Shown here in pieces: positions 3,813-24,763 of a DNA stretch of 27,618 nt (positions within the stretch are counted from its first letter, which is position 1; each line of letters begins with the position of its first letter). Origin of the DNA: a virus; IMG/VR virus record IMGVR_UViG_3300006057_000002, positions 1 to 27,618 of that record; one strand, given 5' to 3'. Position numbers and translations under genes: made by a program. A model generated the notes under the pieces. The model was not told where the DNA came from and did not search any database. It saw only the letters and a list, made by a program, of their open reading frames with translations.

Positions 3813-6800
3813 GAGTGGGCTCCGATGCAGGTTTTCAGCTCTTCCAGGGCTTTCAGGCGGGTGTCGAGCGCCTGCATGGCCTTACGGGCGTCGGACTTCA
3901 GGCTCGCGGTGCGCGTGGTGCCGGCGATCGGCACGGTGCGCGTCACGGTGCGGCCGGTGAAGGCGGCGTAGTCCTGGGCGAAGGCCTGGGCGTCGGTGAG
4001 GTCCTTCGGCTTGGCGTCCAGCTCGGCCTGCCGCCGCTTGTCGCGCACGACAGCCGGGTCGTTCTCGTCGTAGAGGTGATCCTCGATCGCATCGCCGCGC
4101 TTGGCGCCGTTCTTCACCGCGGTCAGGATCTGGTTGCGGATCGGCGAAGAGTCGGCCGAAACGTCGATTTGCCTTGAAATGCCCGACTCGATGACGCTCT
4201 GCAGGCGCGGCATCAGGTTCTTCTTGGCCGCCGCGCCCAGGATGTGGATTGCCTTGGGCTTGGCATCGCGCAGGAACTGGGTCAGCTCTTCGGGAGTGAC
4301 CGCCTTCTCGTTCGAGGGGATGCCGGCGATGAAGTTGTCCGTTCCAAGCAGCTCGACCACCTTGGCATAGGCCTCGGCCATCGACAGCTCGCCCTTCTGG
4401 ATCGGGATGATGAGCTGCGCCAGGTTGGCCTTGGCCTCGGCCTTGATCCAGGCGCGGTGCTTGGCGATCAGGTCGAGGGAGGCTTGCTGGTCGCCGACGA
4501 CATCGGGCATGACCAGCATGGGCCGGATGTAGTCGGTGTCCTCGGCCTTGTTCGCCTCGTCGATTGCGCTGGTGATGTCATCGTACTTGGCCAGGATGGC
4601 GTCGAAGTCCATCGCCTTGAACTGGCCGACCTTTAGGCCGCGGCGGAAGGCGCCGAAAGCGCCGGAGTCGACAAACACCGCGGCATGGTGGTGCACGATC
4701 GCCGTTGCGAGCGCCTCGATGGCCGGGCCAGAGAGCTCGCCGACATCGACGCCGACTCCAGACAGGTCCAGGCCTCCAGTCGCGCGGCCCGAGGCGATTA
4801 GGTCGCTGATACGCGACATGCCCGAGGCGAAGCGGCGCGTCTTCTTGTAGAGCGCAACGGTCTCGCCAGTATCGAACAGGTCGCCTTCTGGCCCCATGGC
4901 TTTCACACCTGAATCCGGCTGCGCGGCGGCGGCTGGCGCCGGTGCTGGCTCTGCTTTCACTTCCAGGGCTGCAGTCAGCTTCTTCAGGTCGGCCTTTTTC
5001 AGCTCCATCGTGCCGAGCTGGCGCAGCACATCGGTGCGCAGAGTGTCAACCGGCAGGTTGGCTTTCTTGGCCCATGCGATCAGCGCGGGCAGCACCTCGG
5101 CGGCGTCGAAGTCATCTTCGCGCACGTCATTGGCCATCTGCGCGGCCAGGTCTTCGGAGTTGCTGTGCAGCTCGGCCAGTGCACGGTCCTCGGCGCGCAG
5201 CCCGCGCTTGTCTTGCGGGCCGCGTGCCTTCTCGTCGAAGTGCATGCCCTCGACGGCTTTGGCGGCGGCATCGGTCTTACCCCAGCCCCATGCGCGATCG
5301 GGACCGGCCGGGCCCTTGGTGATGGTGACCGGGCTGTCAGCGCTCTTGCTCTTGATGACCCAGGTCTGGCCCTTCTCGCCGACCTTGGTTTCAGCCAGCC
5401 ACGTGCGGGATTCATGCTCGGTGCCGCGGTGGTGCACCAGAGTTTCGCCACGTTGAAGCGCTTCGTGCGCTTCGGCGGCGGTGGCGGGCTGGTCTGTCTC
5501 GCCAGCCTTCGGGGCTACTTCTTGCGGCGCGGCGGCGGGCTTACCTTCTTCGCCGCCTCCTGCACGCTGTACGCGATCGCCACTGCCTGCTTCTGGGGCT
5601 TGCCGGCCTTGATTTCCGTCTTGATGTTCGCCTTGAACGCTTGCGGGCTGGCTGACTTCTTGAGCGGCATGGGGGGCTCCGGTGGGCTTGGCCTCAGGGG
5701 TTGAGGCCTTGCCAGTGCCTGGAGTTTCCCCTGTTCCTGTGTTCGAAGCGGTACTGCTGCTCCCGGCCGCGGTGGTGGCATGGGTCTGGAAATACTTGGT
5801 GCGCCGGCCGAAGGCGCCCGACTTCTTCACGGCATCCAGGGCCTGTGCGTCGGTGGCGTTGCCGGGGATCTTCACCGGGTCGCCGCTCTCAAAGTCTACG
5901 ACCTCGTGCCCGGCATGCCAAGGCGTCAGCGTGCCGTCCTTGTTCGAGCGCAGCTCCAGCGGCCGGGCGCTGCTCGGCATCGTGCCGATCTGCGCGATGA
6001 CGCGCGGGCCTACTGCTCCCGGTGCTTCGGCATTTTCTCGAACAGGTCCAGGCGCTCCGCTGCTGGCCACAGGTTTTCCGGGAGCGTTCTCTCCTGGTTT
6101 TCCGGTGTCAGCAGCCACTCGTCCCACAGTTGGCTCGCTTCCGCCTGGCTCACCACTCCGGCCAGCAGGGCTTGGAGCAGGTTCGGCGGGAGCTGTGCGT
6201 AGGTCAGGCTGTGCGGATTCATCAGCGGCATTCTGCGCCAGCTCGGTGCGGACAACCCATCCACCTTGCACTCTGACAACTTCACCGGCGCCTTCGCGCG
6301 TGGCGCGCGCAGCAGCGCTGCCGCGGGTTCCGTAGGGCTGGCCGTCACCGGTGGTCAGGTCGGAGTCCTGCTGCGGGTGCACTGGCTCGCTCGGTTCACT
6401 GAGTCCGCTCAGATCCTCTTCCGGTGCGGCCGGCGCGCCGGATGTTTCACGTGAAGCAGCTGCTTCAGCGTTCGATTTCGCCAGTTCCTTGATCTTGGCA
6501 TCGATTTCTTTCGGGTCTTCGATCGGGCCGGCGGTCAAGGTCGCTGTGGCGTGCTGTCCAACCGGGCTGGCCACTAGCCCCCGCTTCTGGAATGCATCTG
6601 TGAGTCGAGCCAGGAAGGGGCCGACATCGGCCGCTGGCATGGACTTGGCAGTCTCGACGGCGCGCGCTTCCGCATCCGGGTCGAGTCCGTACTGCGCGGC
6701 CAGCGCCTGGAAAACGCCAATGGTCTTGCTGCGCTGCTTGTCTGGGCTATCGGTCGAAAGCGGCGGGGCGACATGGAAGCCTTGCTGTGCTGCCACCTCG

Positions 6801-8617
6801 TAGGCGGTCGGCTGGCGGCCGGCATCGTAGGTGTTGCGCAGCTGCTGCTCGTCCATCGCCGCCGCGGTGTGTTGGGCATGTTCGCGCGCTTCGGTCGCGT
6901 CTTGCAGCCCGATGCGGATGGCGCGCTCCTGCATCTTCTTGCTGATGTGCCCGGTTCCACCCGCCACTGCCGTCATGATCGCGGTCTGCTTCACCACGTC
7001 GATCATGTCGCTCAAGTATTCATCGAACGTGAGGTTAGGCTTGCCACCGGCCGGGCCGAACTTGTCGTACAGACTCTCCATCGTCTGCGTCAAGCCTTCC
7101 CCACCCTGCTCCTTCAGGCCTTCTTTGAGCCCTTCTTTGAGCGCTGAATGCACTGCGGCCTTGGGGCCTAATCCTTGTGCAAGGATTCCTTTGAATGCCA
7201 AGCGCCCAAGGCTTGGCATAGATATCTTTTCACCGATGAGTTCAGATGCGAAATACGTTGCAGCAGCGGTAGCTGCATCACCGGTGCTGAATCCAGCATT
7301 TCTAGCTTCGGAATATTTGTCACCACCAGCTTGTGCGCTTCCAAGAATCAGCGCGCCCGCCTCTCCAGCAAATCCAGCCCCGAGAAGTGCCGTTCCAAGC
7401 GAGGCAAAAGCGCCCTGAATGTTGTGATCGCCGTTTGGGTTATCCAACGAATGAATTACTTCTGATCCATTGTCGGAGGCCCCTTTCGCAATGGAGGCAA
7501 AGTCTTTGGCATTCGTGGCGTCTGCGCCCATGCGCAACAAATCCCATGCCGTTTTGGCCGCTATGGGACCAATCTGTCGAAGCCCAGCTTGGGCGTCTCT
7601 GATCGTGTCGACGATGTGAAACAGCGGGTCTTGAATGAAGGATGGCTGGGAGTCTCGAACTGCCTTCTGGGCTTTCGCTTCGGCGTTCGCCGCAGTCTCA
7701 TCTGCCGCCCATCTGCTGACGTTCTGATTCGTCTTTTCTTGACCTAGACCCATTGCCAAGCTGCGCCGAGCCGCGATTGCTTGGGGCTGGGTGTTGTCCA
7801 GGATATCGCCATAGGTCGGCGTCGTGTCGGGGAATCTCACCGGGGCCGGTGGAGCGCCAGGGGAACCTGGGGCTGCTGGCGCCTGCGGCATCCCGACAAG
7901 TTGTTTTGCCAGCGCGTCGTCTTGCGGGTTGGTGGCAGCGTTCTCGCGCGTCACCTGCGCCAGTAGGGCCTGGGCCGCGCGCCCACGCACGTTGTTGTCT
8001 TGCGCCATCTCGCGCAGGATCGGCAACCGCTGGGCCTCTGGCATTTGCCCGAAGTCGGCGCGCATCTTGTCGATGTACACCGGGTTGAGCATCGCGTCGT
8101 CCGGCGCGGCGCGGGCATTGTCCAGCACCGATGTCTGCTTGAGGTCGGGTGGTTCCAGAGCGAGTTTCGTGTCGCCGCCAACGAACGGTGTGACGGCGCG
8201 CATCGTGCCACGCCGAGCCTGCGGGCTGGCCCATGGCTGCGCGGGCGTGAGGCCAACAGACTCTGGCGCTGGCGATGCGCTCGAATCATCCGCTGCTACA
8301 CCGCCCAGCCCTTCATCGAACGACTGGACTGGGGCCATTTGCTTGGACTGAGATGCGCGCTGCATCTCATCGGCCGTTGGCCCACCCTGCGCGCTGCGCC
8401 CGCCTTGAACGTTGGAGGGCTGAACCCCGGCCGGCAGGGAGCGCCGGTGGTAGCCGGCGGCGGTCTCGAACTGCGCCCGGGTAGCGTCGAGCTGGTCGGG
8501 TGCGACGTTCGGCGCCACCACCCTCTCGAAGTAGGCTGATCGAACGGTGTCCTTGTCGTCGTCGGAGAGCGCCGCGAAGTCGGGCGAGCTCGAAACGTCT
8601 GACCACTTCTTGACCAT
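3809..8617 (-). CDS. Giant ejection (polyvalent-type) protein with C-terminal TGT/DpdA-like domain (1602 aa)
   Basis: Starts at ATG 8617, three bases after the previous stop. Seen: residues 1-60 form a charged helical start of the kind common in large phage internal proteins. A Pro/Ala/Gln linker follows. Residues 402-431 are a Gly/Ala-rich hydrophobic stretch (GAFASLGTALLGAGFAG), then a tandem GLKEGLKE near 492. Residues 700-1010 are largely low complexity and contain a GGWVVR segment. Residues about 1290-1505 carry motifs in the order of the tRNA-guanine transglycosylase superfamily: VDSGAF (D1317), MPDVVGD (D1372), PIQKGE (Q1407), IAGIPS (G1432), IHILG (H1458) and ADSS (D1489). Known: TGT and DpdA exchange guanine for 7-deazaguanines in tRNA or DNA. 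No Cys cluster for zinc follows. Position last in the ejection block suggests it is packaged and injected. Two out-of-frame genes lie inside it. Confidence 0.85.
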   Translation of the reverse strand: MVKKWSDVSSSPDFAALSDDDKDTVRSAYFERVVAPNVAPDQLDATRAQFETAAGYHRRSLPAGVQPSNVQGGRSAQGGPTADEMQRASQSKQMAPVQSFDEGLGGVAADDSSASPAPESVGLTPAQPWASPQARRGTMRAVTPFVGGDTKLALEPPDLKQTSVLDNARAAPDDAMLNPVYIDKMRADFGQMPEAQRLPILREMAQDNNVRGRAAQALLAQVTRENAATNPQDDALAKQLVGMPQAPAAPGSPGAPPAPVRFPDTTPTYGDILDNTQPQAIAARRSLAMGLGQEKTNQNVSRWAADETAANAEAKAQKAVRDSQPSFIQDPLFHIVDTIRDAQAGLRQIGPIAAKTAWDLLRMGADATNAKDFASIAKGASDNGSEVIHSLDNPNGDHNIQGAFASLGTALLGAGFAGEAGALILGSAQAGGDKYSEARNAGFSTGDAATAAATYFASELIGEKISMPSLGRLAFKGILAQGLGPKAAVHSALKEGLKEGLKEQGGEGLTQTMESLYDKFGPAGGKPNLTFDEYLSDMIDVVKQTAIMTAVAGGTGHISKKMQERAIRIGLQDATEAREHAQHTAAAMDEQQLRNTYDAGRQPTAYEVAAQQGFHVAPPLSTDSPDKQRSKTIGVFQALAAQYGLDPDAEARAVETAKSMPAADVGPFLARLTDAFQKRGLVASPVGQHATATLTAGPIEDPKEIDAKIKELAKSNAEAAASRETSGAPAAPEEDLSGLSEPSEPVHPQQDSDLTTGDGQPYGTRGSAAARATREGAGEVVRVQGGWVVRTELAQNAADESAQPDLRTAPAEPAPSPAGRSGEPGGSEPTVGRVAADTGKPGENAPGKPVASSGAPGPVRENAEAPGAVGPRVIAQIGTMPSSARPLELRSNKDGTLTPWHAGHEVVDFESGDPVKIPGNATDAQALDAVKKSGAFGRRTKYFQTHATTAAGSSSTASNTGTGETPGTGKASTPEAKPTGAPHAAQEVSQPASVQGEHQDGNQGRQAPEAGSGDRVQRAGGGEEGKPAAAPQEVAPKAGETDQPATAAEAHEALQRGETLVHHRGTEHESRTWLAETKVGEKGQTWVIKSKSADSPVTITKGPAGPDRAWGWGKTDAAAKAVEGMHFDEKARGPQDKRGLRAEDRALAELHSNSEDLAAQMANDVREDDFDAAEVLPALIAWAKKANLPVDTLRTDVLRQLGTMELKKADLKKLTAALEVKAEPAPAPAAAAQPDSGVKAMGPEGDLFDTGETVALYKKTRRFASGMSRISDLIASGRATGGLDLSGVGVDVGELSGPAIEALATAIVHHHAAVFVDSGAFGAFRRGLKVGQFKAMDFDAILAKYDDITSAIDEANKAEDTDYIRPMLVMPDVVGDQQASLDLIAKHRAWIKAEAKANLAQLIIPIQKGELSMAEAYAKVVELLGTDNFIAGIPSNEKAVTPEELTQFLRDAKPKAIHILGAAAKKNLMPRLQSVIESGISRQIDVSADSSPIRNQILTAVKNGAKRGDAIEDHLYDENDPAVVRDKRRQAELDAKPKDLTDAQAFAQDYAAFTGRTVTRTVPIAGTTRTASLKSDARKAMQALDTRLKALEELKTCIGAHS
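5515..5670 (-). CDS. Nested out-of-frame small phage protein, MPLKK...AGKPQKQAVAIAYS family (51 aa)
   Basis: An ATG at 5670 opens a 51-codon frame inside the giant gene, on the same strand but in a different reading frame. A GGAG lies about 7 bases upstream. The product starts MPLKKSASPQAF, has a central AGKPQKQAVAIAYS motif and ends in a basic tail (PPPRRKK). I recognise this as a widespread family of tiny basic phage proteins of unknown function, usually 40-60 residues and encoded among structural genes. The giant's own frame over this stretch is low-complexity Gln/Glu/Ala/Gly, so the nested frame carries the recognisable protein. This is a same-strand overprinted gene; expression would need internal initiation. 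The function of the family is unknown to me. Confidence 0.8.
   Translation of the reverse strand: MPLKKSASPQAFKANIKTEIKAGKPQKQAVAIAYSVQEAAKKVSPPPRRKK
6010..6222 (-). CDS. Nested out-of-frame small protein, LPPNLLQALLAG...LWDEWLL (70 aa)
   Basis: A second frame nested in the giant gene, in the same alternative frame as the one at 5515-5670. The likely start is ATG 6222 (MNPHSLTYAQLPP); an ATG three codons earlier (6231) is the alternative. No strong Shine-Dalgarno is seen for either. The protein is a well-balanced helical chain with two amphipathic helices (LPPNLLQALLAGVVSQAEA and SQLWDEWLL), then LPENLWPAAERL. This resembles small phage proteins that I have seen near structural genes but cannot name. 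The giant's frame here (about residues 799-869) is Pro/Gly/Ala/Glu low complexity. That contrast favours a real overprinted gene over a chance frame, but with less certainty than for the downstream one. Confidence 0.62.
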   Translation of the reverse strand: MNPHSLTYAQLPPNLLQALLAGVVSQAEASQLWDEWLLTPENQERTLPENLWPAAERLDLFEKMPKHREQ

Positions 8618-8620
8618 GCG

Positions 8621-10420
8621 TCAGAACCCGAATTTCTTGGCCGCGGCATCCCGCGTCAGGCCGCCCGGCTTCCCGGCAGGCTTGGGCGGCGGAAGGCCAG
8701 GATTGGCCGTTGGGTCTGGTGTGGCATCCAGGCTGTCGGCTTGAGCCTTGCGTGCGTCGATGCGATCGGTGATCGCCTGGAGCCGGCCGGCCAGCCGCTT
8801 GTGCTCGGCAGCGGTTGCCGGGTCTCTGCGGACTGCGCCGCTGGCATTCTCGATGCGCTTGTCGAACGCGGAAAGATCCGCGCGCGCATTCGACTCGTCG
8901 GTGCTGTCGGCCTTGTTCTGGTCGCGCAGCTCCATCGCTTTCTGCTTCCGCTCGGCCAAACTGTCCCCAGGTTTTCCACTGCCCCCGCCGCCCAGGCCGG
9001 AACCGGTGTACTTCCCGGGCTTGATACCAGAGACAACCGCGATCTTTGCAGCCTTTTTTTCTGCTGCGCTCAAGGTGTCATCGGCCTCGATCGCATCGAG
9101 CTTGGACTGCATCTGTGTGGACTGTGGGCCATTTGCCTGACGATTGGCGAAAGAGGCCTTCAACTTGGCTCCATCCTCTTCGCTCATGACGCCTTGCGCC
9201 ACTTGATCGTCGATGGACTTGGCATAGATGTTCAGTTTGTCGGCGGGGTTGATCCTCGGGTTTCCCTGAATCACTCGGCTGCTCGAAACCTCACCACTCG
9301 GGCTCGTTGTTTCTTCAAGCACAGAAGAGCCGGCCGGCATCACAGTGCGCGTCACGGTACGCTTGGCTGGCATGATGCCCAACGTCGCATTCAGGTAGTC
9401 GTCCGGGGTCTGGCCCGGGTTGGCGTAGGCGCCCTGGAGCTTCTGCTGCGCCTCGGGCGTGTTCAACAGGTCGGCCAGGTGCAGGTTGTGCCCGATGAAG
9501 TCCAAACCGTCCTTCATGCTGAAGCGCATGACCTTGGCATCGGGCGAGCTGGTGCGGTCTTCAGTCACCGGTGCGAAGTAGTGGCCGGTTGCACCAGCCG
9601 GCGCACCCTGAGCCTCATCGCTTGTGATGGTTGGGTGCGCGAGGTCTCCGCTGTCGGCACGCTCCTTGCCATCGTTGACCCAGACCTTGAGCATGGGGAT
9701 GTAGTGCGGGTCATCCTTCGGGCTGTTCGGGTCCAGGTGCAGGTCGGCGATCTGGGCGCCGACGATCTTCCCGCCGTGCGGGCTGGGCTGGCCAATGATT
9801 CGCTCGATGCTGGGCTTTTGCAGGAAGTTCAGGCCGGCTACAGCCGCCTTGGTGTCGCCTGACTGCACCCCCTGAATGACCTGCTGCCCGGCCTGTTCGA
9901 TCGGTGACGGGCTTCCATCTTCGCCGCGCTGGAAGTCGCCGAGGGGACGCTGCACCCCCTGCACAACGGTGTTCGCAAAGTCGGTGTCCGACATGCTGGA
10001 CGGGTCGAGCGACCCGTCCGCGAGTTTTTGCTGCGCCTGGGCGTATTGCTGGGTCAGCGCGTCGAGGTCGGCGCCGCCATAAGTCGCGCGGGCCTTCGAG
10101 ATGGTCGCTTGATTGTTGCGCACCGCCGCGGCGAGCACGGCCTTGCGCTCAGGGGTTGGCTGCGTTCCCAGAACTTGGTGGGTCGCGAGCTCACGCTGAA
10201 TGTCGGCGTTGCTCTGCGTCGCGGCATTGATCGAGTCCGAAGTGTCCTGTCGCGTGTTCTGGCGCTCGAGCTGATCCGCCTGCGCCTGGTCAAGACGGTC
10301 CTGGCGCTCGTTGTTGCGAGCCTGCTGCTCCTGCTGGCGCCGCTGGTTGACGACATCCATCCCCAGGCGGAAGCCTGACTCCAGGCCTGTTGCTGCGGCT
10401 TCACCGACTGATCGTGCCAT
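8621..10420 (-). CDS. Internal virion / ejection protein (599 aa)
   Basis: The start chosen is ATG 10420 (MARSVGEAAATG), 10 bases after the previous stop and preceded by GGCAGG. An upstream in-frame start would overlap the preceding gene and add residues unlike the family. Residues 25-75 form a strongly charged Gln/Arg/Glu coiled coil (NQRRQQEQQARNNERQDR). The middle is globular (around 190-350, with DPHYIPMLKVWVNDG). A KRTVTRTVMPAG segment follows, then a Gly-rich linker (SGLGGGGSG), a second charged helical region and a Pro-rich tail ending AAAKKFGF. The arrangement matches podovirus ejection proteins, which are packaged in the capsid and delivered before the DNA. It lies between the small Gly/Ala-rich proteins and the giant protein, like the gp20/gp16 positions in P22. 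That correspondence is by position only. Confidence 0.75.
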   Translation of the reverse strand: MARSVGEAAATGLESGFRLGMDVVNQRRQQEQQARNNERQDRLDQAQADQLERQNTRQDTSDSINAATQSNADIQRELATHQVLGTQPTPERKAVLAAAVRNNQATISKARATYGGADLDALTQQYAQAQQKLADGSLDPSSMSDTDFANTVVQGVQRPLGDFQRGEDGSPSPIEQAGQQVIQGVQSGDTKAAVAGLNFLQKPSIERIIGQPSPHGGKIVGAQIADLHLDPNSPKDDPHYIPMLKVWVNDGKERADSGDLAHPTITSDEAQGAPAGATGHYFAPVTEDRTSSPDAKVMRFSMKDGLDFIGHNLHLADLLNTPEAQQKLQGAYANPGQTPDDYLNATLGIMPAKRTVTRTVMPAGSSVLEETTSPSGEVSSSRVIQGNPRINPADKLNIYAKSIDDQVAQGVMSEEDGAKLKASFANRQANGPQSTQMQSKLDAIEADDTLSAAEKKAAKIAVVSGIKPGKYTGSGLGGGGSGKPGDSLAERKQKAMELRDQNKADSTDESNARADLSAFDKRIENASGAVRRDPATAAEHKRLAGRLQAITDRIDARKAQADSLDATPDPTANPGLPPPKPAGKPGGLTRDAAAKKFGF

Positions 10421-10430
10421 GGTCCTGCCC

Positions 10431-10751
10431 TCAGAAATACTTGCCGGCGATCGCGCCGATTGCGCCACCGATCAGCGCGCCCCATGGGCCGCCAGCGCTG
10501 CCGTACTGCGCACCGATGGCCATGCCAGCACCGGCGCCAACCGTCGAGCCGAGTTGCGAATTCCCGGCCTTGCGCTCGGCCTCGATCTGCTGGTTCTCGA
10601 TGTTGCGCTTCTGCTCTTCGGCCGCGGCGTCGCCGAGCTGGCGAATCGCCTGCTTCTGCTGGCCAGGACCGATGCCGAGCAGGCTGTCGCCGCCCATGCT
10701 GTTGGTGTTCCCGCCCGAACCAGTGCCCAGGCCGTAGGTGCCGATGGTCAT
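10431..10751 (-). CDS. Small ejection-type protein with C-terminal glycine zipper (106 aa)
   Basis: The ATG at 10751 overlaps the previous stop as ATGA, which fixes the start. Residues 1-30 are Gly/Ser/Asn-rich and flexible. Residues 31-65 are a charged helix (QLGDAAAEEQKRNIENQQ). Residues 70-106 form a Gly/Ala repeat with small residues every fourth position (GAGAGMAIG, GALIGGAIGAIAG), a glycine zipper able to insert in or line a membrane. Known: glycine zippers occur in membrane-inserting peptides and in some phage internal proteins. Inferred: this protein helps form the channel across the host envelope, a role like that proposed for the smaller P22 ejection proteins. Confidence 0.75.
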   Translation of the reverse strand: MTIGTYGLGTGSGGNTNSMGGDSLLGIGPGQQKQAIRQLGDAAAEEQKRNIENQQIEAERKAGNSQLGSTVGAGAGMAIGAQYGSAGGPWGALIGGAIGAIAGKYF

Positions 10752-11239
10752 TTCACTGCTCCCAGCCCGAGGGCGTTGATACGGGGGCTCGGGTTGCCGA
10801 TGATGGTCTGCTGGCGGGCGATGGTCTGATCGCGAGCGCTGTTCTGACCCTGGACATCGGCGGCCGAGCGTGCGAGCTTGCTGGTGCGGTCGGACACGGC
10901 CTGCTCTTCTGGCGTCAGGGTCAAGCCCAGGCCGGAGAGGCGGCGCTGATTCGCGCCAGCCTGGCGGTCGAAGGCATCGTTCACGTCGCTTCCGGCTTCG
11001 GTCATCGCGTTGCTGACTACAGTGGGGTCCGTCGCGTACTGGATCAGCTTGTTTTCCTGCGGGACGCCGATCTGCGTCAGGTAGTCGTTCCACTGCTGCC
11101 GCGTGATTGCGGCATAGGTGTCGCTGGCGCTGGTGGTCGAGCCGCTGCTCGAAGATCCGTTCAACCCGAGATTGCCGCGGGTGTAGTCGCGACCGATCTT
11201 GTCCAACGGCTCGTTGTTGATGATGCTGGCGAGACTCAT
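10748..11239 (-). CDS. Small virion/ejection-block protein (163 aa)
   Basis: The ATG at 11239 overlaps the stop of the preceding gene as ATGA. The chain is polar and helix-rich, with a Ser/Gly linker near residues 28-38 and many Gln, Asn and Arg residues. It has no signal peptide or membrane segment. A short YLTQIGVPQ segment and a long C-terminal helix (about residues 85-150, RTSKLARSAADVQGQ) are the main visible features. It belongs to a run of four small coupled genes before the two large ejection proteins. An internal virion role is inferred from position; the family is not recognised. Confidence 0.7.
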   Translation of the reverse strand: MSLASIINNEPLDKIGRDYTRGNLGLNGSSSSGSTTSASDTYAAITRQQWNDYLTQIGVPQENKLIQYATDPTVVSNAMTEAGSDVNDAFDRQAGANQRRLSGLGLTLTPEEQAVSDRTSKLARSAADVQGQNSARDQTIARQQTIIGNPSPRINALGLGAVK

Positions 11240-11877
11240 CGGCCACCTCTCAGGCTGTTGGGGAGCGTTGTTCCTCGGTAGTCGTCAGTGTTGGCTGGCG
11301 GTGGTGTCGTGGCTCCTGTCGGGTTCCACAGGCCTGCGCCGGTGCCGATGATCTTCCCGGCCAGCCCAACATCACCCATTTGGCTTTCCAGGGAATTCTG
11401 GGCATCGGCCTTGGCCTGCGCGCCGCTCATCTGGGCCTGACGCTGCATGCCCTCGATCGCAGTGGCTTTCTCGCCGCGCCCGATCGCAGCGACTGCGCCC
11501 AGGCCTTGAATCGTCGAGTCGCTGACTGCCTGATCGGCGCCAACGGCACCCAGACCGGCCGAGGTCGCCTGATCGTTGCCCATGCCGGTGATCGCCAGCT
11601 TCTGCTTCGAAGTGCCAAGGTTTCCGCTCGCCGCTGTCATCCCGGTGGCTGCTTCGTTGGCGCCGCCGAACTGTGCAGCGGTGTCGGTGGTGGCTAGCGA
11701 GGTTGCGTGGCGGCGCTGGTACGAGTCGGGAGCGCCTGCTGCCTCGGTGTTGGCAGCGAAACGCTTGATGAACGGCGCCCAGCGCGTGTGGAAGTCGGCC
11801 AGCTGCTGCGCACCGATGTCTGCATTCGCGCGCTGCGCCTCGGTCTCCTGGACTTGATTGCTGCCCTTCTTGCCCAT
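11236..11877 (-). CDS. Ala/Gly/Gln-rich virion/ejection-block protein (213 aa)
   Basis: The start chosen is ATG 11877 (MGKKGSNQVQETEAQ). It overlaps the previous stop as TGATG and has GAGGAA about 6 bases upstream; an upstream alternative would sit inside the preceding gene. The N-terminus (residues 20-45) is the most ordered part, with aromatic residues in FHTRWAPFIKRF. The rest is low complexity in Ala, Gly, Thr and Gln (TGMTAASGNLGTSKQ, GLGAVGADQAV) and reads as long repetitive helices. A short Gly-rich hydrophobic segment occurs near 182-195 (GLAGKIIGTGAGLW). This matches small internal virion proteins of podoviruses, many of which are Ala/Gln-rich. The specific role is unknown. Confidence 0.75.
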   Translation of the reverse strand: MGKKGSNQVQETEAQRANADIGAQQLADFHTRWAPFIKRFAANTEAAGAPDSYQRRHATSLATTDTAAQFGGANEAATGMTAASGNLGTSKQKLAITGMGNDQATSAGLGAVGADQAVSDSTIQGLGAVAAIGRGEKATAIEGMQRQAQMSGAQAKADAQNSLESQMGDVGLAGKIIGTGAGLWNPTGATTPPPANTDDYRGTTLPNSLRGGR

Positions 11878-12272: not shown

Positions 12273-12745
12273 AGAAGCTCCCACAGCTCAGTGTCGAGCT
12301 GATCGGCCAGGAATGGGTACCAGGGTTCCTGCGAGATCGGAATCACGAGGTCAAGGCTACCGATCGAGAAGATCGGGCTTCCATCATGCCCATCTGCGTA
12401 CTGGATCAGGATGCCGCCAGCACCTGCAATGAGGGTTCGGGTGATGAGGGCACCATCTTTGAGTACGACGAACCCATTGGGCTGGCCAAGAAGCGCAGTG
12501 AGCGCGGCGACATCCGGCGCCGTGTTCAGCACCTTGACCTGCTTGGAGAGCTGCGAGACTTGACTCTGCAAGTCGGCCAGCGTTTGAACGGTCGTGTTGG
12601 CGCCGATCAGCCGGAGCAGGCGGGCCAGCTCAGCTTCGTCAATCTGGAACCGCGCGCGGATGTTGTCGATGGCCTGCTGGACCGCTGCCAGCTCGAGCTG
12701 GCGCGGTGTCGGGATTGCCGGGCTTCCAATGCCGCCAGTAGCCAT
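12269..12745 (-). CDS. Coiled-coil tail fibre / needle-like protein (158 aa)
   Basis: The ATG at 12745 overlaps the nozzle gene's stop as TGATG. Residues 15-80 form a heptad-like coiled coil (QQAIDNIRARFQIDEAELARLLR, then ADLQSQVSQLSKQVKVL). Residues 95-130 carry the motif (NGFVVLKDGALITRTLIAG ... GILIQYADGHDGSPIFSI) that recurs in phage fibre shafts as a trimeric beta-prism segment. The C-terminus ends WELL. In P22 the gene after the nozzle-like gp10 encodes the trimeric tail needle gp26, and this protein holds that position with suitable architecture. A short side fibre is the alternative. No transmembrane segment or enzyme motif is seen. Confidence 0.7.
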   Translation of the reverse strand: MATGGIGSPAIPTPRQLELAAVQQAIDNIRARFQIDEAELARLLRLIGANTTVQTLADLQSQVSQLSKQVKVLNTAPDVAALTALLGQPNGFVVLKDGALITRTLIAGAGGILIQYADGHDGSPIFSIGSLDLVIPISQEPWYPFLADQLDTELWELL

Positions 12746-15072
12746 CAGGTCATCTCGTCAACGCTGGTAGCGACCTGGATGCTTCGAACGCTCGAAGTTC
12801 CGATCAGCTCCATCTCGAAGGAGTCACCCGATGTGGACTCAGGGATGCGGAATGGAAGGTTGCTAGTGATGACGCGCTGGTGGAACTGCACCTTGTCCGA
12901 GATGAACCGTGCGATGACGTTCGTGAAGTCGTTGGCCTCGACCTTGGCGAAGTGGTAGGTCATCGAGTAGGGAACGAGGTTTAGCTTCCCGCGCCACCGA
13001 TACGCCATCTTGTTCGTCGCGTGCGCGTTGAATTCGTAGATCGTTGTCGTGCTGGCAACGACTGCCGTGCTGGCGATGGGCAGCGCACCATCGGTGGGCT
13101 CGCTGTTCACGTCGAGCACAAGGTAGAGCGCATCGCGGATCGGGTTCACGTGCGCAGCGATCGCGTGGTAGGCCAGGCTCATCAGGCCGAAGCCCGACTG
13201 CTTGGCGTCATAGGCATACCCGGCGTTCGGGCTGGCTCCGGTGAACCAGAAGTGCAGCACCCCATCGTGCACGGCCGCGATGATCGAGGTCGGGTCGAGG
13301 GCCTTCCACTGGTCCTTGGTGAAGATCAACTCGGTCGCGTTCTTCACGTTGCCTGCGGACCCCTGACAGACTTGGTATCCATCTGGGGAGGCAAACATGA
13401 CGCCATAGCCGTCCAGGTAGGTCATGCTTTGCTTCGATGTGCAGGACTGAGGCTCACCCGGCTTGCTCATCGAGTAGTTAGCTGGGTCGTTGCCCGTGCA
13501 CGTGTAGACGAAGCTCTTGGTGCCGATGACGATGGTGTTATCGATGTTCGCAATTGCGACGATGTCGGTGTCGGTGGTCCTGCGGTAGCTAAGGGGCCAC
13601 GCAAATGGGTAGCCGGCGACCGACAGGCAGAGCTGGTTGCGGAAAAACCCGGCCATGATGCCATTCGGGAGGTGGATGATGCCCTCCATGATTGGGCTGG
13701 GCAGATCCCACAGCTCGGTCTGCAACACATCGGGGCCGACCTTGTTGTCTGGGAGCGTGTCGACGTAGACGGCCTCGGCGAGCGGTCGCTCGGCGACGAA
13801 CAGCAGCGCCGTTCCTGTGGCACCCGTCACCTCGCGGTAGATTCGCTTCGTCGTGATGCCGTAGAGGGGGTCTGTTCCGACTGGAGCGGTCGTCGGAGTG
13901 GTCACGCTGACCGAAACGCCATCGGGTCGCAGGATCGTCGAGCTCGGATCGCTTGGGGCCGACTCCCAGCCCAGGTCATTGACGAAAGTGTAGACATAGG
14001 CGGTCGCGGTGTTGACCGGCACATAGCCTGCCGATCCGCTCGCAGTCACGTGGTAGGCCGAATAGTAGGTGCGGCCGTATGGCGTCAGGTCGTTGTTCAC
14101 GCCATCGCCGAAGCCGCACATATCTCCATCATCGAAGTTCCCTGTCGCGGTCACAGTGCCGAGGACAGTCGTCCCGTTGAGCACGGTCGCAATGACAGTC
14201 TTGGTCGCGTCGGCGTTCAGCGTGACCTGCACCCTCATGATGTTGTTGACCAGCGGCGCGACGCCTGGGCATGCAACCGAAGCGATCAACGCGCGGCCGT
14301 ATAGGAAGCCCCAATTCGCCGTCTTGTGGATGCCCAGCACGCCGTTGCCGTAGTTCACGCCGACCCCGGCGCCAGCACTCGTGGCGCACACGATCATGCT
14401 GGCTTGACCTTCGAGCGAATAGTCGCCGGCGATCAGGAAATTGCACGTGGCGCTGAAGGCGGTAACTCCAGAGACACCGAAGTTCCGATAGGCCCAGGCC
14501 TCCTGCCCGGGGTTCCGGTTCTCATCGAAGGTCACTCGGTATGAGCCGGTGTCCTGCTCGATGTAGGCAGAGGTCGTGCCGTAGAGGTTGGTGTTTTTGA
14601 TCCACTTCGTGGAGAGCGATGCGTTGTCGTCGAGCGTGTCGATCGAAAACGTGGTCGGGGTCGAATCGACGCCAGGCGCAACACCTGGGGCGCTCACTGG
14701 CGCCGGCACACCGAGCGGTCGAGTTGCTACTGGGTAGGGTTCAGCGCCGGTTGTCGCGAGTGCATAGGTCGTGAAACGCGGGGTCGTGTAGAGCGCCGGG
14801 CACGTCAGGAAGGTCAGGTAGCTTGTGTCTCCTGCGATCAAGCCTCGCGCTACATCGACCTGTTGGGTCCAGGAAAGCCACTTGTCGTTGAGCAGGTAGA
14901 TCGTCTTCGCCGGCCCAGCTGCGAGTACCTTGGTGCTGAGGAACTGCTTCCAGGGCTCGAGGTCACCTGTCTGCATGCGCGCATTGAGCGCGGCCTGGGC
15001 CGATGTGTCGGGCAGGTTGCGTGCTGAGATGCGTGGCGCCTCGCCGCGGAAGGTTTCGATGTCCAGCTTCAT
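12745..15072 (-). CDS. Tail nozzle / hub protein with inserted beta-sandwich (775 aa)
   Basis: The ATG at 15072 lies 9 bases after the previous stop. The N-terminus (FRGEAPRISARNLPDTSAQAALNARMQTGDLEPWK) is the signature opening of podovirus tail-tube nozzle proteins, comparable to P22 gp10 and T7 gp12. These form a beta-propeller-like ring under the adaptor and retain DNA. Propeller-type repeats run from about residue 350 to 690, with YTFVNDLGWESAPSDPS, LPNGIMAGFFRNQLCLS, and FASPDGYQV among the blade strands. Residues about 140-345 look like an inserted jelly-roll domain (LamG-like) not needed for the basic fold. The C-terminus is beta-rich. Location between adaptors and needle-like gene supports the assignment. 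Confidence 0.8.
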   Translation of the reverse strand: MKLDIETFRGEAPRISARNLPDTSAQAALNARMQTGDLEPWKQFLSTKVLAAGPAKTIYLLNDKWLSWTQQVDVARGLIAGDTSYLTFLTCPALYTTPRFTTYALATTGAEPYPVATRPLGVPAPVSAPGVAPGVDSTPTTFSIDTLDDNASLSTKWIKNTNLYGTTSAYIEQDTGSYRVTFDENRNPGQEAWAYRNFGVSGVTAFSATCNFLIAGDYSLEGQASMIVCATSAGAGVGVNYGNGVLGIHKTANWGFLYGRALIASVACPGVAPLVNNIMRVQVTLNADATKTVIATVLNGTTVLGTVTATGNFDDGDMCGFGDGVNNDLTPYGRTYYSAYHVTASGSAGYVPVNTATAYVYTFVNDLGWESAPSDPSSTILRPDGVSVSVTTPTTAPVGTDPLYGITTKRIYREVTGATGTALLFVAERPLAEAVYVDTLPDNKVGPDVLQTELWDLPSPIMEGIIHLPNGIMAGFFRNQLCLSVAGYPFAWPLSYRRTTDTDIVAIANIDNTIVIGTKSFVYTCTGNDPANYSMSKPGEPQSCTSKQSMTYLDGYGVMFASPDGYQVCQGSAGNVKNATELIFTKDQWKALDPTSIIAAVHDGVLHFWFTGASPNAGYAYDAKQSGFGLMSLAYHAIAAHVNPIRDALYLVLDVNSEPTDGALPIASTAVVASTTTIYEFNAHATNKMAYRWRGKLNLVPYSMTYHFAKVEANDFTNVIARFISDKVQFHQRVITSNLPFRIPESTSGDSFEMELIGTSSVRSIQVATSVDEMT

Positions 15073-18740: not shown

Positions 18741-20057
18741 TCAGCTCGGACGCTTGCGCACCACGCTGTCGACGACCATGACACCGTAGTCGGTCATCTC
18801 GAGCTGGCCCGATGCGTTCGGCAAGGCCCAGCGCAGTTTGGCTTCGGTGCCCATGAGCTCACCCGCAAACTGAAGGTCACGACCGAAGTTGTCGGTGTTC
18901 TTCTCCAGCAGCGTGTAGGTCTCCTGGGACTGCTTGTTGCCACCCGAGACACAGGCCAGGGCCTGGGCGCCGAGGAACAGCGAGCGAGCAACCTGATGCG
19001 TCGCCGGCAGACCCGCATTCACGACCTGCACCGACTCCGTCGCAGTCAGCCGGTTGGCGACCGTGACGATCTGGGTGTTGTCGTTCGCGTCGAAGCGGAT
19101 CGGGAAATTCATCTTGCGGAGCAGGATGTTGTTCCAGAGCATGACTTCGCCGCTGAACAGCGGGTGAGCCTTCATGTTGCCGTACTCGGCGCGGCGCATC
19201 GCGTCGGTCTCGAACTTCCGGATGTTGTTGTTCGAGGTGTTGTCCTGGATGAAGTTGTCCCAGACCAGTTGGTCCATGAAGAACACACCCTTGATCGGCG
19301 AGTCGCCCGCGGCCGGGTCGTCGGGGATGCGGATCGGGCGCATGCGAACGGGCATTTCCGACCAGATGGCGGCCAGTTCGTCCACCACGGTGAGGCGCAT
19401 CACGTCCGTGGAGAGGATCGAGCCAAGCTGCAGGCCACCCTGGATCAGCGTACCGGCCGACACCACGAAGTGGCGGTTGTAGGTCGGAGCCAGGATCGGG
19501 TTGACCATCAGCGCGGCCAGGCCGGCATCGGCGCCGGCGGCGGTGTTCGCCGGCAAGATCCAGTCGACGCCATCGGACTTGCCGCGCGCGCCGGCCATCT
19601 GGACCAGCGAACGCTGCCAGCGGAACCGCGGCATTGCCTCGGTGAGCTGGTAGATGGCGTTCTTGCGCAGGCTGTGCACCGTGCGCTGTTGGCTCATCTT
19701 GCCGCCCGCCGAGATGGGCAGGGTGGCCATGTTGAGCAACAGCTCCTGGATGCTGTAGTCGAGCGCCGGGCCCATGCCTTCCGCGTTCTGGTCGCCCATG
19801 ATGGCGACGAACTTGGCGATCTGGCCGCAATCGACCTGGACGCGGTCACCCGCGGTCTTGGTCAGCTCGTCCACGCGCAGGATCGGCATGAACTGGGAGG
19901 TCTGCTGCTTCTGCTTGCGCAGCACCTCATCTTCGGTGGGCATCGGGCCCGAAAGGCTGTTCAGCGGAGTCGCTTCGCGGCCGACCATGAACGACAGTGT
20001 TTCCGACCACGATTTCTTCGCGATCTGACTGGTCGTGTTGACGACAGTGGTAGACAT
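18741..20057 (-). CDS. Major capsid protein, N4-gp56/DUF4043-like (438 aa)
   Basis: The ATG at 20057 is preceded by GAGGAA about 9 bases upstream. The N-terminus (TTSQIAKKSWSETLSFMVGREATPLNSL) and the following TAGDRVQVDCG segment fit the DUF4043/N4 gp56-type HK97-fold coat family. Other typical parts are RWQRSLVQMAG, the aromatic GVFFMDQLVWDNF and the C-terminal ETYTLLEKNTDNFGRD. Length is close to P22 coat (430) and to other members. Location after a scaffold-type gene and before a small head protein is as expected. It would form the icosahedral shell. No protease gene is seen nearby, consistent with a scaffold-dependent, protease-free assembly as in P22. Confidence 0.88.
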   Translation of the reverse strand: MSTTVVNTTSQIAKKSWSETLSFMVGREATPLNSLSGPMPTEDEVLRKQKQQTSQFMPILRVDELTKTAGDRVQVDCGQIAKFVAIMGDQNAEGMGPALDYSIQELLLNMATLPISAGGKMSQQRTVHSLRKNAIYQLTEAMPRFRWQRSLVQMAGARGKSDGVDWILPANTAAGADAGLAALMVNPILAPTYNRHFVVSAGTLIQGGLQLGSILSTDVMRLTVVDELAAIWSEMPVRMRPIRIPDDPAAGDSPIKGVFFMDQLVWDNFIQDNTSNNNIRKFETDAMRRAEYGNMKAHPLFSGEVMLWNNILLRKMNFPIRFDANDNTQIVTVANRLTATESVQVVNAGLPATHQVARSLFLGAQALACVSGGNKQSQETYTLLEKNTDNFGRDLQFAGELMGTEAKLRWALPNASGQLEMTDYGVMVVDSVVRKRPS

Positions 20058-22576: not shown

Positions 22577-24763
22577 TCAGGCTTGCGCGACGGCGTTGGG
22601 CGCCATGCCGGGCTCACTGGCCTGCTGCGCGACGGGCGGCGAGCCGGCAGCTTCGGCCATCGACTCGTCGATCAGTCGCTTGCGTTCGGCCTCGGGGTCT
22701 TTGTACGGGTCGGGCTGGTCGCTGGCGAGGGCCATGGCGTGGCCAATCTCGACGGCCTTGGCGTTGTTCAGCTCGGTCGCGCTCTTGGTGTTCTCGATCT
22801 TGGCGGCTAGCCCTTCCATGGTCAGTGTCTGCATGGCCTGGGCGGCTTGCGCCTGCTGCTGCTTCTCGGCTTCGGCCTGCTGCTGCATCTGGGCCATGTT
22901 CTGCTTGTCGCTGGCCGTGGGGATGTTCAGGGCGCGGCGGATGTCGTCGGCGCGCTCCTGGCGGTCGGGCAGGTCGGTCATCTCGACGAAGCTCGGGGTC
23001 ATGATCGCCGCGGCCTGCGGGCTGGCTTGGGCCAGGGCCTGGATGACGGTCGCGACCTGCTGCTGCTGCATCATGCGATAGCTCGGGGTGCTCGGGACTT
23101 CGCCCAGGCCGACCCGGAGCGCGGCATCTGCCACGCCGTTGATGATGTTGCCATCTTGGTCGAAGTCGTTCAGCACCACCACGCGGCGGCTGGAGCCGGA
23201 GCCGATCTTGCACTGGAGCTGCGCGGCCGAGTGATCCTCGATGAGCTGGTCGAGCAGGATCTCGTGCACAAGCCCACGGGAGTCGCGGTAGTTGTCGTTC
23301 AGGTCGCCCATCGCGACGGCGCCCTGTTCGATGAGCAGGCTGTTGGCGATGCCGCTGGTCACGCCGCTCGCAGCCTGGCCGAGCTGGGAGCCGTAGACCC
23401 CGGGCACGTCCTGGATCAGCTGCTTCGCGTCCTGCATCATGTCGATCTGCTCTTTCTGCATCTCGAGCGCGTTGCCGACCCGGAAGGCGTCCTGGTACTT
23501 GCGGTTGGGGTTGAGCACCACCGTTAGGTCAGGGCGCATGACTGCATCGGCGACCTGGGCGAGCGTGTTGGCCTTCTCGTCCAGCGCATCGTTGTCCACC
23601 GTGATCTGGCGCGCGCGGAGCAGCCAGTTGACGCGGATGCGGCGGGCGTTGTACTCGTCCTGCGGGCCGATCATGCCTTCGACTAGGCCGTAGGGCGTCT
23701 GGTCTTGGTCGTCACGGTAGGCGAAGAACGGCACGTAGGGGAAGACGCGCCGCGCGGTGCCCACGTCTTGCAGGCGGTGCGGCCCGGCGTAGAGCGCGCA
23801 GCGGACTTGGCTGCTGATGGTCCTGGTGATCTGGACCTTCCCGGACATCACGGCGTTGATGTGGGTCTGGTTCTGCTCGTTGAACAGCACGCGGCGGGTG
23901 GGCCCGAGGTGCAGCACGATCGCCTGGGCGGGAACGCGGTACCAGACCTCATACATCTTGATCCGGCGCCGGCCCACGTCGAACCACTCGGTGCGCTGGC
24001 GGTACTTCGCGAAGTTCTTGTAGTCGCTGAAGGCGTTGACCTGGGTCAGCTCGTAGTCGGTGTTGTCGAACTTGAAGTTCATCCACCCGTTAGCCGCGTT
24101 CTGGAGCACCTTGCGGTGCCTGGGCATGGCAGCTTCGAGCTCGTCGAGGTCGGCCCACTCCTTGTGCACCAGCCAGCGGGCATCGCGGAGCAGAGGATCA
24201 AGGGCGGCCCAGTCCCACCAGACTTTGCGGCGGTCGATGACGCGCACGCGGTGCGGGTAGTTCAGCGGGTCCGGGTCGCGATCGACCTTGCACCAGCCCA
24301 GGCCAATGCCGACTTGGCCGGCGTAGGCGCCGCTGACGCCCATGTCCACCTTGGCCTCGCGCCGCGCCTCTTTCATGGCTAGGCTGAGCACGTCGCACAC
24401 GTCCGACTCGTCGTCGTCGTCGGCCTCGATCTTCACGTCCGTGCGGCTCTTGGCCTCTTGGCCGAGGATGCCGCGCACGATGCGGCCGATCAGGTTGGTC
24501 GGTCGAAGGTCCTGCATGCCCTCGGCGCGCAGGGACTGCTCCTGAAGGGGGGTGAACTGCTTCCCGTCGATGTAGCCCGCGGCGAGGTCAGCTTGGTCGC
24601 GCCAGTAGTTGGGCTGGTTGTCGCAGTCGGAGAGCATCCGCTCGAGCGCCGTCAGGTTCCAGCCGTTCGTGGACTCGTCGCGGTCCTGGTCGACGTTGAC
24701 GATGTCGCTCTTGAGCGGCTTCATCGTGCGCGGCTGGTACTCGGTGTCGGGGGTCGCGATCAT
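22577..24763 (-). CDS. Portal protein, P22-like (728 aa)
   Basis: The ATG at 24763 overlaps the terminase stop as ATGA. Length (728) matches P22 portal (725). The N-terminal region has the P22-portal pattern NQPNYWRDQADLAAGYIDGKQF, then LRPTNLIGRIVRGILGQEAKSRTD. The centre has VWWDWAALDPLLRDARW and FAYRDDQDQTPYGLVEGMIGPQ, and a stem-type region (ADAVMRPDLTVVLNPN). Residues about 635-690 are Gln/Ala-rich helices (QMQQQAEAEKQQQAQAAQA), comparable to the barrel extension of P22 portal. Twelve copies would form the DNA entry ring and the packaging sensor. No truncation or frameshift is visible. Confidence 0.92.
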   Translation of the reverse strand: MIATPDTEYQPRTMKPLKSDIVNVDQDRDESTNGWNLTALERMLSDCDNQPNYWRDQADLAAGYIDGKQFTPLQEQSLRAEGMQDLRPTNLIGRIVRGILGQEAKSRTDVKIEADDDDESDVCDVLSLAMKEARREAKVDMGVSGAYAGQVGIGLGWCKVDRDPDPLNYPHRVRVIDRRKVWWDWAALDPLLRDARWLVHKEWADLDELEAAMPRHRKVLQNAANGWMNFKFDNTDYELTQVNAFSDYKNFAKYRQRTEWFDVGRRRIKMYEVWYRVPAQAIVLHLGPTRRVLFNEQNQTHINAVMSGKVQITRTISSQVRCALYAGPHRLQDVGTARRVFPYVPFFAYRDDQDQTPYGLVEGMIGPQDEYNARRIRVNWLLRARQITVDNDALDEKANTLAQVADAVMRPDLTVVLNPNRKYQDAFRVGNALEMQKEQIDMMQDAKQLIQDVPGVYGSQLGQAASGVTSGIANSLLIEQGAVAMGDLNDNYRDSRGLVHEILLDQLIEDHSAAQLQCKIGSGSSRRVVVLNDFDQDGNIINGVADAALRVGLGEVPSTPSYRMMQQQQVATVIQALAQASPQAAAIMTPSFVEMTDLPDRQERADDIRRALNIPTASDKQNMAQMQQQAEAEKQQQAQAAQAMQTLTMEGLAAKIENTKSATELNNAKAVEIGHAMALASDQPDPYKDPEAERKRLIDESMAEAAGSPPVAQQASEPGMAPNAVAQA

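Follow-up and report, generated by a model that had tools for sequence, protein, structure and literature searches.

A DpdA-like barrel domain in giant proteins of phages and in plasmid proteins: a candidate base-exchange enzyme that may accompany invading DNA

The late operon of the uncultivated virus record IMGVR_UViG_3300006057_000002, here referred to as the window and analysed over its full length of 27,618 bases, ends in an ORF for a 1602-aa protein whose C-terminal part carries motifs reminiscent of enzymes that exchange bases in nucleic acids. A preliminary description of this DNA had seen in it a domain like that of tRNA-guanine transglycosylase (TGT) or of its relative DpdA, placed on a protein ejected into the host. 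Phage DpdA is known to exchange bases on DNA (PMC6884629). The locus thus raises the questions to which of these enzymes the domain is related, in which other elements it occurs, and whether it could enter a cell together with the DNA on which it might act.

The giant gene and its surroundings

The late operon runs on the minus strand through the small and large terminase subunits, the portal, the major head protein and virion proteins to an internal virion protein, a phrog_611 protein, a glycine-zipper protein, a 615-aa protein and the 1602-aa ORF (Table 1), which starts 3 bases past the stop of the gene upstream. The head protein is nearest to those of Achromobacter phage CF418P1 and Pseudomonas phage F116, both of which possess giant genes immediately ahead of lysis. 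The phrog_594 protein of 271 aa ends in its glycine zipper, a membrane-insertion-like feature that fits an ejection protein. Within the giant protein itself, the recognised parts are the DpdA-like domain and a glycine-rich segment, which recurs in L034, the nearest relative, again within a giant protein (E 5e-9); a second recognised domain was not found.

Table 1. Features of the window discussed in the text, in order of transcription.
Feature	Position	Strand	Remarks
Portal protein	22577..24763	-	phrog_156
Major head protein	18741..20057	-	phrog_334; related to Pseudomonas phage F116
Internal virion protein	12745..15072	-	phrog_511, E 2e-111
271-aa glycine-zipper protein	10431..11246	-	phrog_594
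615-aa protein, function unassigned	8621..10468	-	directly upstream of giant ORF
Giant late-operon ORF, 1602 aa	3809..8617	-	ATG start
Glycine-rich hydrophobic segment, residues ~398-559	6941..7426	-	match to L034 giant protein
Low-complexity linker, residues ~601-1200	5018..6817	-	rich in A/P/E/G/S/T/Q
DpdA-like (beta-alpha)8 barrel domain, residues ~1257-1515	4073..4849	-	AlphaFold2 model and profile match to DpdA
D1317 (VDSGAF), end of strand 3	4667..4669	-	pairs with 9g DpdA D72 and bacterial TGT D89
D1372 (MPDVVGD), after strand 4	4502..4504	-	pairs with 9g DpdA D114
Q1407 (PIQKGE), after strand 5	4397..4399	-	pairs with 9g DpdA H141; with TGT Gln at low confidence
G1432 (IAGIPS), strand 6	4322..4324	-	pairs with 9g DpdA G166
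H1458 (IHILG), strand 7	4244..4246	-	pairs with 9g DpdA H196
D1489 (ADSS), strand 8, predicted nucleophile	4151..4153	-	pairs with 9g DpdA D215 and nt-1 DpdA2 D266

A barrel domain between DpdA and DpdA2

The six motifs listed in Table 1 each occur in one copy and at the residues at which they had been reported. The interval 4098-4750 that had been proposed for the domain begins too late and omits the first two strands of the barrel, which extends from about residue 1257 (window position ~4849). A TIM-barrel fold, whose absence from a predicted structure would have spoken against the proposal, was indeed predicted: the AlphaFold2 model of the domain, built from 49 sequences (pLDDT 94.3, pTM 0.91), is a (βα)8 barrel with strands at 21-24, 46-51, 73-77, 127-129, 161-165, 190-194, 216-220 and 245-250 in domain numbering, i.e., window residue minus 1240. 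Strands 3 to 8 carry the motifs at their C-terminal ends. A control model of 9g DpdA (pLDDT 90.1) displays D72, D114, H141, H196 and D215 in equivalent places, and strand-by-strand comparison of both models assigns all six motifs to the same strands, 3-8, in the same order.

Profile comparisons point in the same direction. The window domain matches phrog_887 (E 4.5e-5), the group of phage DpdA, which is labelled queuine tRNA-ribosyltransferase; of 12 family members, 10 match it likewise. With hhalign, the family reached Prob 95-97 against DpdA profiles, and global alignment with a profile of diverse DpdA (Prob 96.6, E 6.8e-10) spans all 290 residues and eight strands, pairing D77-D72, D132-D114, Q167-H141, G192-G166, H218-H196, G221-G199 and D249-D215, whereas all control profiles stayed below 1, the reversed DpdA profile and ten shuffled ones giving Prob 0.2 or less. 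The proposed kinship with DpdA was thereby borne out, and the domain is almost certainly DpdA-related. Compared with 9g DpdA (YP_009032326; phrog_887), it has the (beta-alpha)8 barrel in common, neither shows a conserved zinc cluster, and D72, D114, H196, G199 and D215 correspond to D1317, D1372, H1458, G1461 and D1489; in contrast, 9g DpdA is a stand-alone gene of ~317 aa, usually adjoining preQ0 synthesis genes, shares about 20% identity, and has His after strand 5 where the window domain has Gln.

The second form, DpdA2 of Vibrio phage nt-1 (YP_008125322), matches the family in its C-terminal half (E 3e-5; E 3e-4 to 2e-3 under other column rules). As DpdA and DpdA2 barely match each other (E 0.048) while the family matches both, it was placed between them. 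DpdA2 has the same motif order, and its VHMLG...DSST is especially close to IHILG...DSSP of the window domain at the HxLG and DSS ends, but it is a 464-aa protein within a preQ0 gene cluster, and its DSGGLQ and FDEIP resemble TGT. In the fold search among viral models an ART-PolyVal protein came first (rmsd 1.9 at 30% identity) and R9TGF0 of nt-1 third; with 464 aa the latter has exactly the length of DpdA2 and, from phage and length, we infer it to be that protein. His196 is conserved in DpdA, and DpdA2 was described as possessing no His at this position (PMC6884629); in nt-1 DpdA2 (L108:11913-13307), however, the His of VHMLG pairs with that of the family's HILG.

A kinship specifically with canonical tRNA-acting TGT was not supported. 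Superfamily membership, the DSG loop and the order Asp-Asp-Gln-Gly-Asp are shared, but TGT possesses a zinc site and a Pfam match, both absent from the window domain: the Pfam scan of 12 members yielded no match to PF01702, and hhalign gave Prob 2.2 for the family against canonical TGT (3 for the diverse DpdA set). In the PDB fold search with Foldseek, TGT was absent from the top 50 matches of the window domain, whereas the 9g DpdA model, as a positive control, retrieved TGTs at ranks 1-29, so that the barrel lies further from TGT than DpdA does. The zinc-type Cys cluster had correctly been reported as missing: C1597 is the sole Cys past residue 1240, and a CxCxxC...H site past the barrel was not found in the window protein. 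A lost activity, considered earlier as one reading of this, does not follow, since the phage DpdA alignment has no conserved cluster either. The domain is a divergent sister of DpdA rather than a TGT, and we lean towards regarding it as a new divergent subfamily which, within the tRNA-guanine-transglycosylase superfamily, belongs to the branch of phage DpdA.

Conservation was followed over 84 distinct homologous domains. D1317 is kept in 83/83 and D1372 in 84/84, figures that are partly circular because both residues belonged to the search patterns, while H1458, which pairs with DpdA His196, G1461 and D1489 lie outside these patterns and are each present in all 82 members having the column. 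The position of Q1407 holds Q in 72/84, P in 10/84 and H in 2/84. Of the three residues whose conservation had been named as decisive, D1317 and D1489 are thus invariant and the Gln is not. A subgroup of phages (L021, L022, L024-L027, L030, L032, L035) has Pro rather than the base-binding Gln at this place behind strand 5; a different base or substrate may be the reason. Overall, motif conservation is far beyond chance.

Homologues in phages and plasmids

The family comprises 84 distinct homologues from phage contigs and plasmids of Pseudomonadota. Scanning viral sequences with the window domain as a single sequence found no relatives, and an alignment query was required, which retrieved 52 viral and 25 bacterial loci, the latter all from Pseudomonadota. 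By tblastn with the isolated domain, plasmid relatives were found in 46 records, down to E 4e-71, among them LPD1 proteins from Cupriavidus, about 2,200 aa long, and a DUF6884 fusion; stand-alone relatives of 256-406 aa occur in Pseudomonas, Alteromonas, Azonexus and Microvirga. The maximum-likelihood tree requires 8 changes between phage and plasmid (7-8 in bootstrap trees), of which the starred branches alone force 6, so the domain travels as a module between phages and plasmids, with at least six switches.

In a collection of isolated phages tblastn found no carrier, and its matches at E 0.3-10 (tail fibre, Propionibacterium) were put down to chance. Used as sequence queries against the PDB, the window domain, A1, A2 and A3 gave no meaningful match. 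Database matches to a manganese pyrophosphatase and a short tail fibre (E 0.05-0.6) were likewise rejected as chance. Pfam, including its LPD families, NCBIfam and PADLOC had no match for the domain. No published description of this combination was found in the open-access literature. The DpdA-like domain in giant phage proteins and in plasmid proteins is real, widespread and apparently undescribed.

In viral relatives the domain usually lies within ORFs of 2,000-6,500 aa, together with LPD38, ddrB-ParB, a ResIII or Strawberry-notch-type helicase, a small methyltransferase, ART-PolyVal, RadC or InPase, and in plasmid relatives it lies in LPD1 proteins. Such proteins resemble the polyvalent proteins (Iyer et al. 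2017, PMC5512222) and P1 DarB / DdrB, which are also giant, multi-domain and late; homologues of the domain are fused to LPD38, ddrB-ParB, ART-PolyVal, InPase, RadC and LPD1, whereas the window protein has no such recognised partner. The main text of the polyvalent-protein survey mentions neither TGT, queuine, deazaguanine nor DpdA (PMC5512222). BRC systems with TGT (PMC12839542) likewise place an enzyme of this superfamily in a phage-host conflict, but there it belongs to a host defence operon and here to a putatively delivered protein of the invader.

InPase, a polyvalent-type inorganic pyrophosphatase, was detected in 11/89 loci and in 10 of them in one protein with the domain, in either order (L020, L033, L038, L040, L044, L045, L046, L049, L050, L052); a functional link between both is possible. 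PAPS-reductase-like (PP-loop) genes lie near the domain or are fused to it in 11/89 loci of phages and plasmids (L005, L006, L009, L037, L038, L040, L051, L081, L082, L084, L088). As related phages such as JC1 carry a PAPS reductase gene, too (PMC9144972), these genes may belong to the background of such elements and were kept as a lead rather than as a clue to a pathway. A Cupriavidus plasmid protein (L003:5851-7599) combines the domain with a C-terminal DUF6884, and on a Pseudomonas aeruginosa plasmid a stand-alone homologue (L008:5968-7655) is directly followed by a phosphoribosyltransferase gene.

Predicted activity, delivery and alternatives

From these sequence relationships, the domain is predicted with good confidence to exchange bases, and, with less assurance, to act on DNA; the likelihoods expressed here for kinship with DpdA, base exchange, action on DNA and delivery are judgements rather than computed values. 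The invader's own DNA is the likely substrate, since DNA is the target of the closest relatives that have been characterised and since fusions to anti-restriction-type domains occur in phages and plasmids alike. In the proposed mechanism D1489 would attack C1' of guanosine to form a covalent glycosyl-enzyme, D1317 would serve as general acid/base, and D1372, Q1407 and G1432 would bind guanine as it leaves and the 7-deazaguanine that is to replace it; this new base would be preQ0 made by the host, or a relative of preQ0. The roles given to these five residues are those known in general from TGT.

In agreement with the preliminary description, a scan of window proteins with PHROGs found no 7-deazaguanine synthesis genes, nor did 45 related viral records, many of which are fragments, yield a QueC or PTPS/QueD family. 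The missing linkage to preQ0 genes, which is usual for DpdA though not universal, counts against the assignment but does not disqualify it, since 76 phages possess DpdA without synthesis genes, and 9g DpdA alone puts preQ0 made by its E. coli host into plasmid DNA (PMC6884629). Taken together, these observations make a host-supplied 7-deazaguanine the best mechanism. That a DpdA-type domain on a giant protein, be it delivered or late-acting, exchanges host-made 7-deazaguanine into the DNA of the invader is the reading we favour, with some reserve.

Most likely, the giant late protein is packaged in the virion and enters together with the DNA. Its ejection into the host is suggested by operon position, by analogy with phage JC1 and by the precedent of P1. 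The giant ORF lies in a late operon ahead of lysis, as in the F116/933W/Bcep22 class, and this operon includes an internal virion protein. The podovirus JC1, a relative of F116 and 933W, encodes its giant protein gp69 before the lysis module, and 51 unique peptides of gp69 were detected in CsCl-purified virions (PMC9144972); gp69 is a positional analogue of the window protein rather than a recognised homologue. The Dar proteins of P1 enter with the DNA and shield it from type I restriction (PMC12810830). By these analogies an enzyme delivered with the DNA appears probable. The full proposal, an undescribed class of base-exchange enzymes that travel with phage or plasmid DNA and swap guanine in it, or in host tRNA, for a host-made 7-deazaguanine just after entry, is more tentative, and we would put it at clearly less than an even chance. 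Presence, conservation, predicted fold, homology to DpdA, domain company and phage-plasmid exchange are established by the analysis, whereas activity, substrate, base, packaging and an anti-restriction purpose are what we infer from them.

Action at entry has to be weighed against action late in the producing cell, where progeny DNA would be modified before or during packaging and the enzyme at most be carried along. The location in a late structural operon corresponds to a time of abundant DNA, and characterised DpdA phages modify their progeny DNA inside the producing cell (PMC6884629). Yet fusions to co-injected Dar- or polyvalent-type domains and the plasmid LPD1 proteins suggest work at entry, and a plain DpdA phage gene would need no carrier of 1,600 to 6,500 residues; exclusively late action is thus rather unlikely. 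Less likely still is a DpdA-like barrel that leaves DNA untouched and works instead on tRNA of the host or on nucleotide pools, as a hydrolase, in base salvage or in counter-signalling. Its ancestry in the TGT superfamily would agree with this, and nucleotide chemistry is hinted at by the InPase fusions, the PAPS-reductase-like neighbours and the phosphoribosyltransferase gene adjoining a plasmid homologue, but every profile test puts the family nearer to DNA-acting DpdA than to tRNA-acting TGT, PUA and zinc modules are absent, and the PAPS reductase genes may be mere background, given that of JC1.

An unrelated TIM-barrel enzyme with merely DpdA-like DSGAF and PDVVGD loops is very improbable: aldolases and other compact barrels lead the PDB fold search and, when aligned locally, the profiles of the family and of 9g-type DpdA match over strands 3-5 only, but the global alignment pairs all motifs over eight strands, and FBP aldolase and DeoC, the generic barrels of Foldseek's choice, were ruled out by hhalign profiles with Prob <1. 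A catalytically dead relic, retained as a nucleic-acid-binding or structural module, might be read from the varying Gln position and has the least chance, as the catalytic Asp and His are invariant over 82 members with identity down to about 25%.

The favoured exchange of host-made 7-deazaguanine into invading DNA lends itself to study, since the ~260-aa homologues that stand alone on Pseudomonas plasmids allow a direct test of the activity. If true, it would provide the invader with a host-made 7-deazaguanine without need of synthesis genes of its own. In the phage 7-deazaguanine systems known so far, progeny DNA is modified within the producing cell; a delivered domain of the DpdA family would extend base modification to the stage of entry and link polyvalent proteins with the 7-deazaguanines of DNA.
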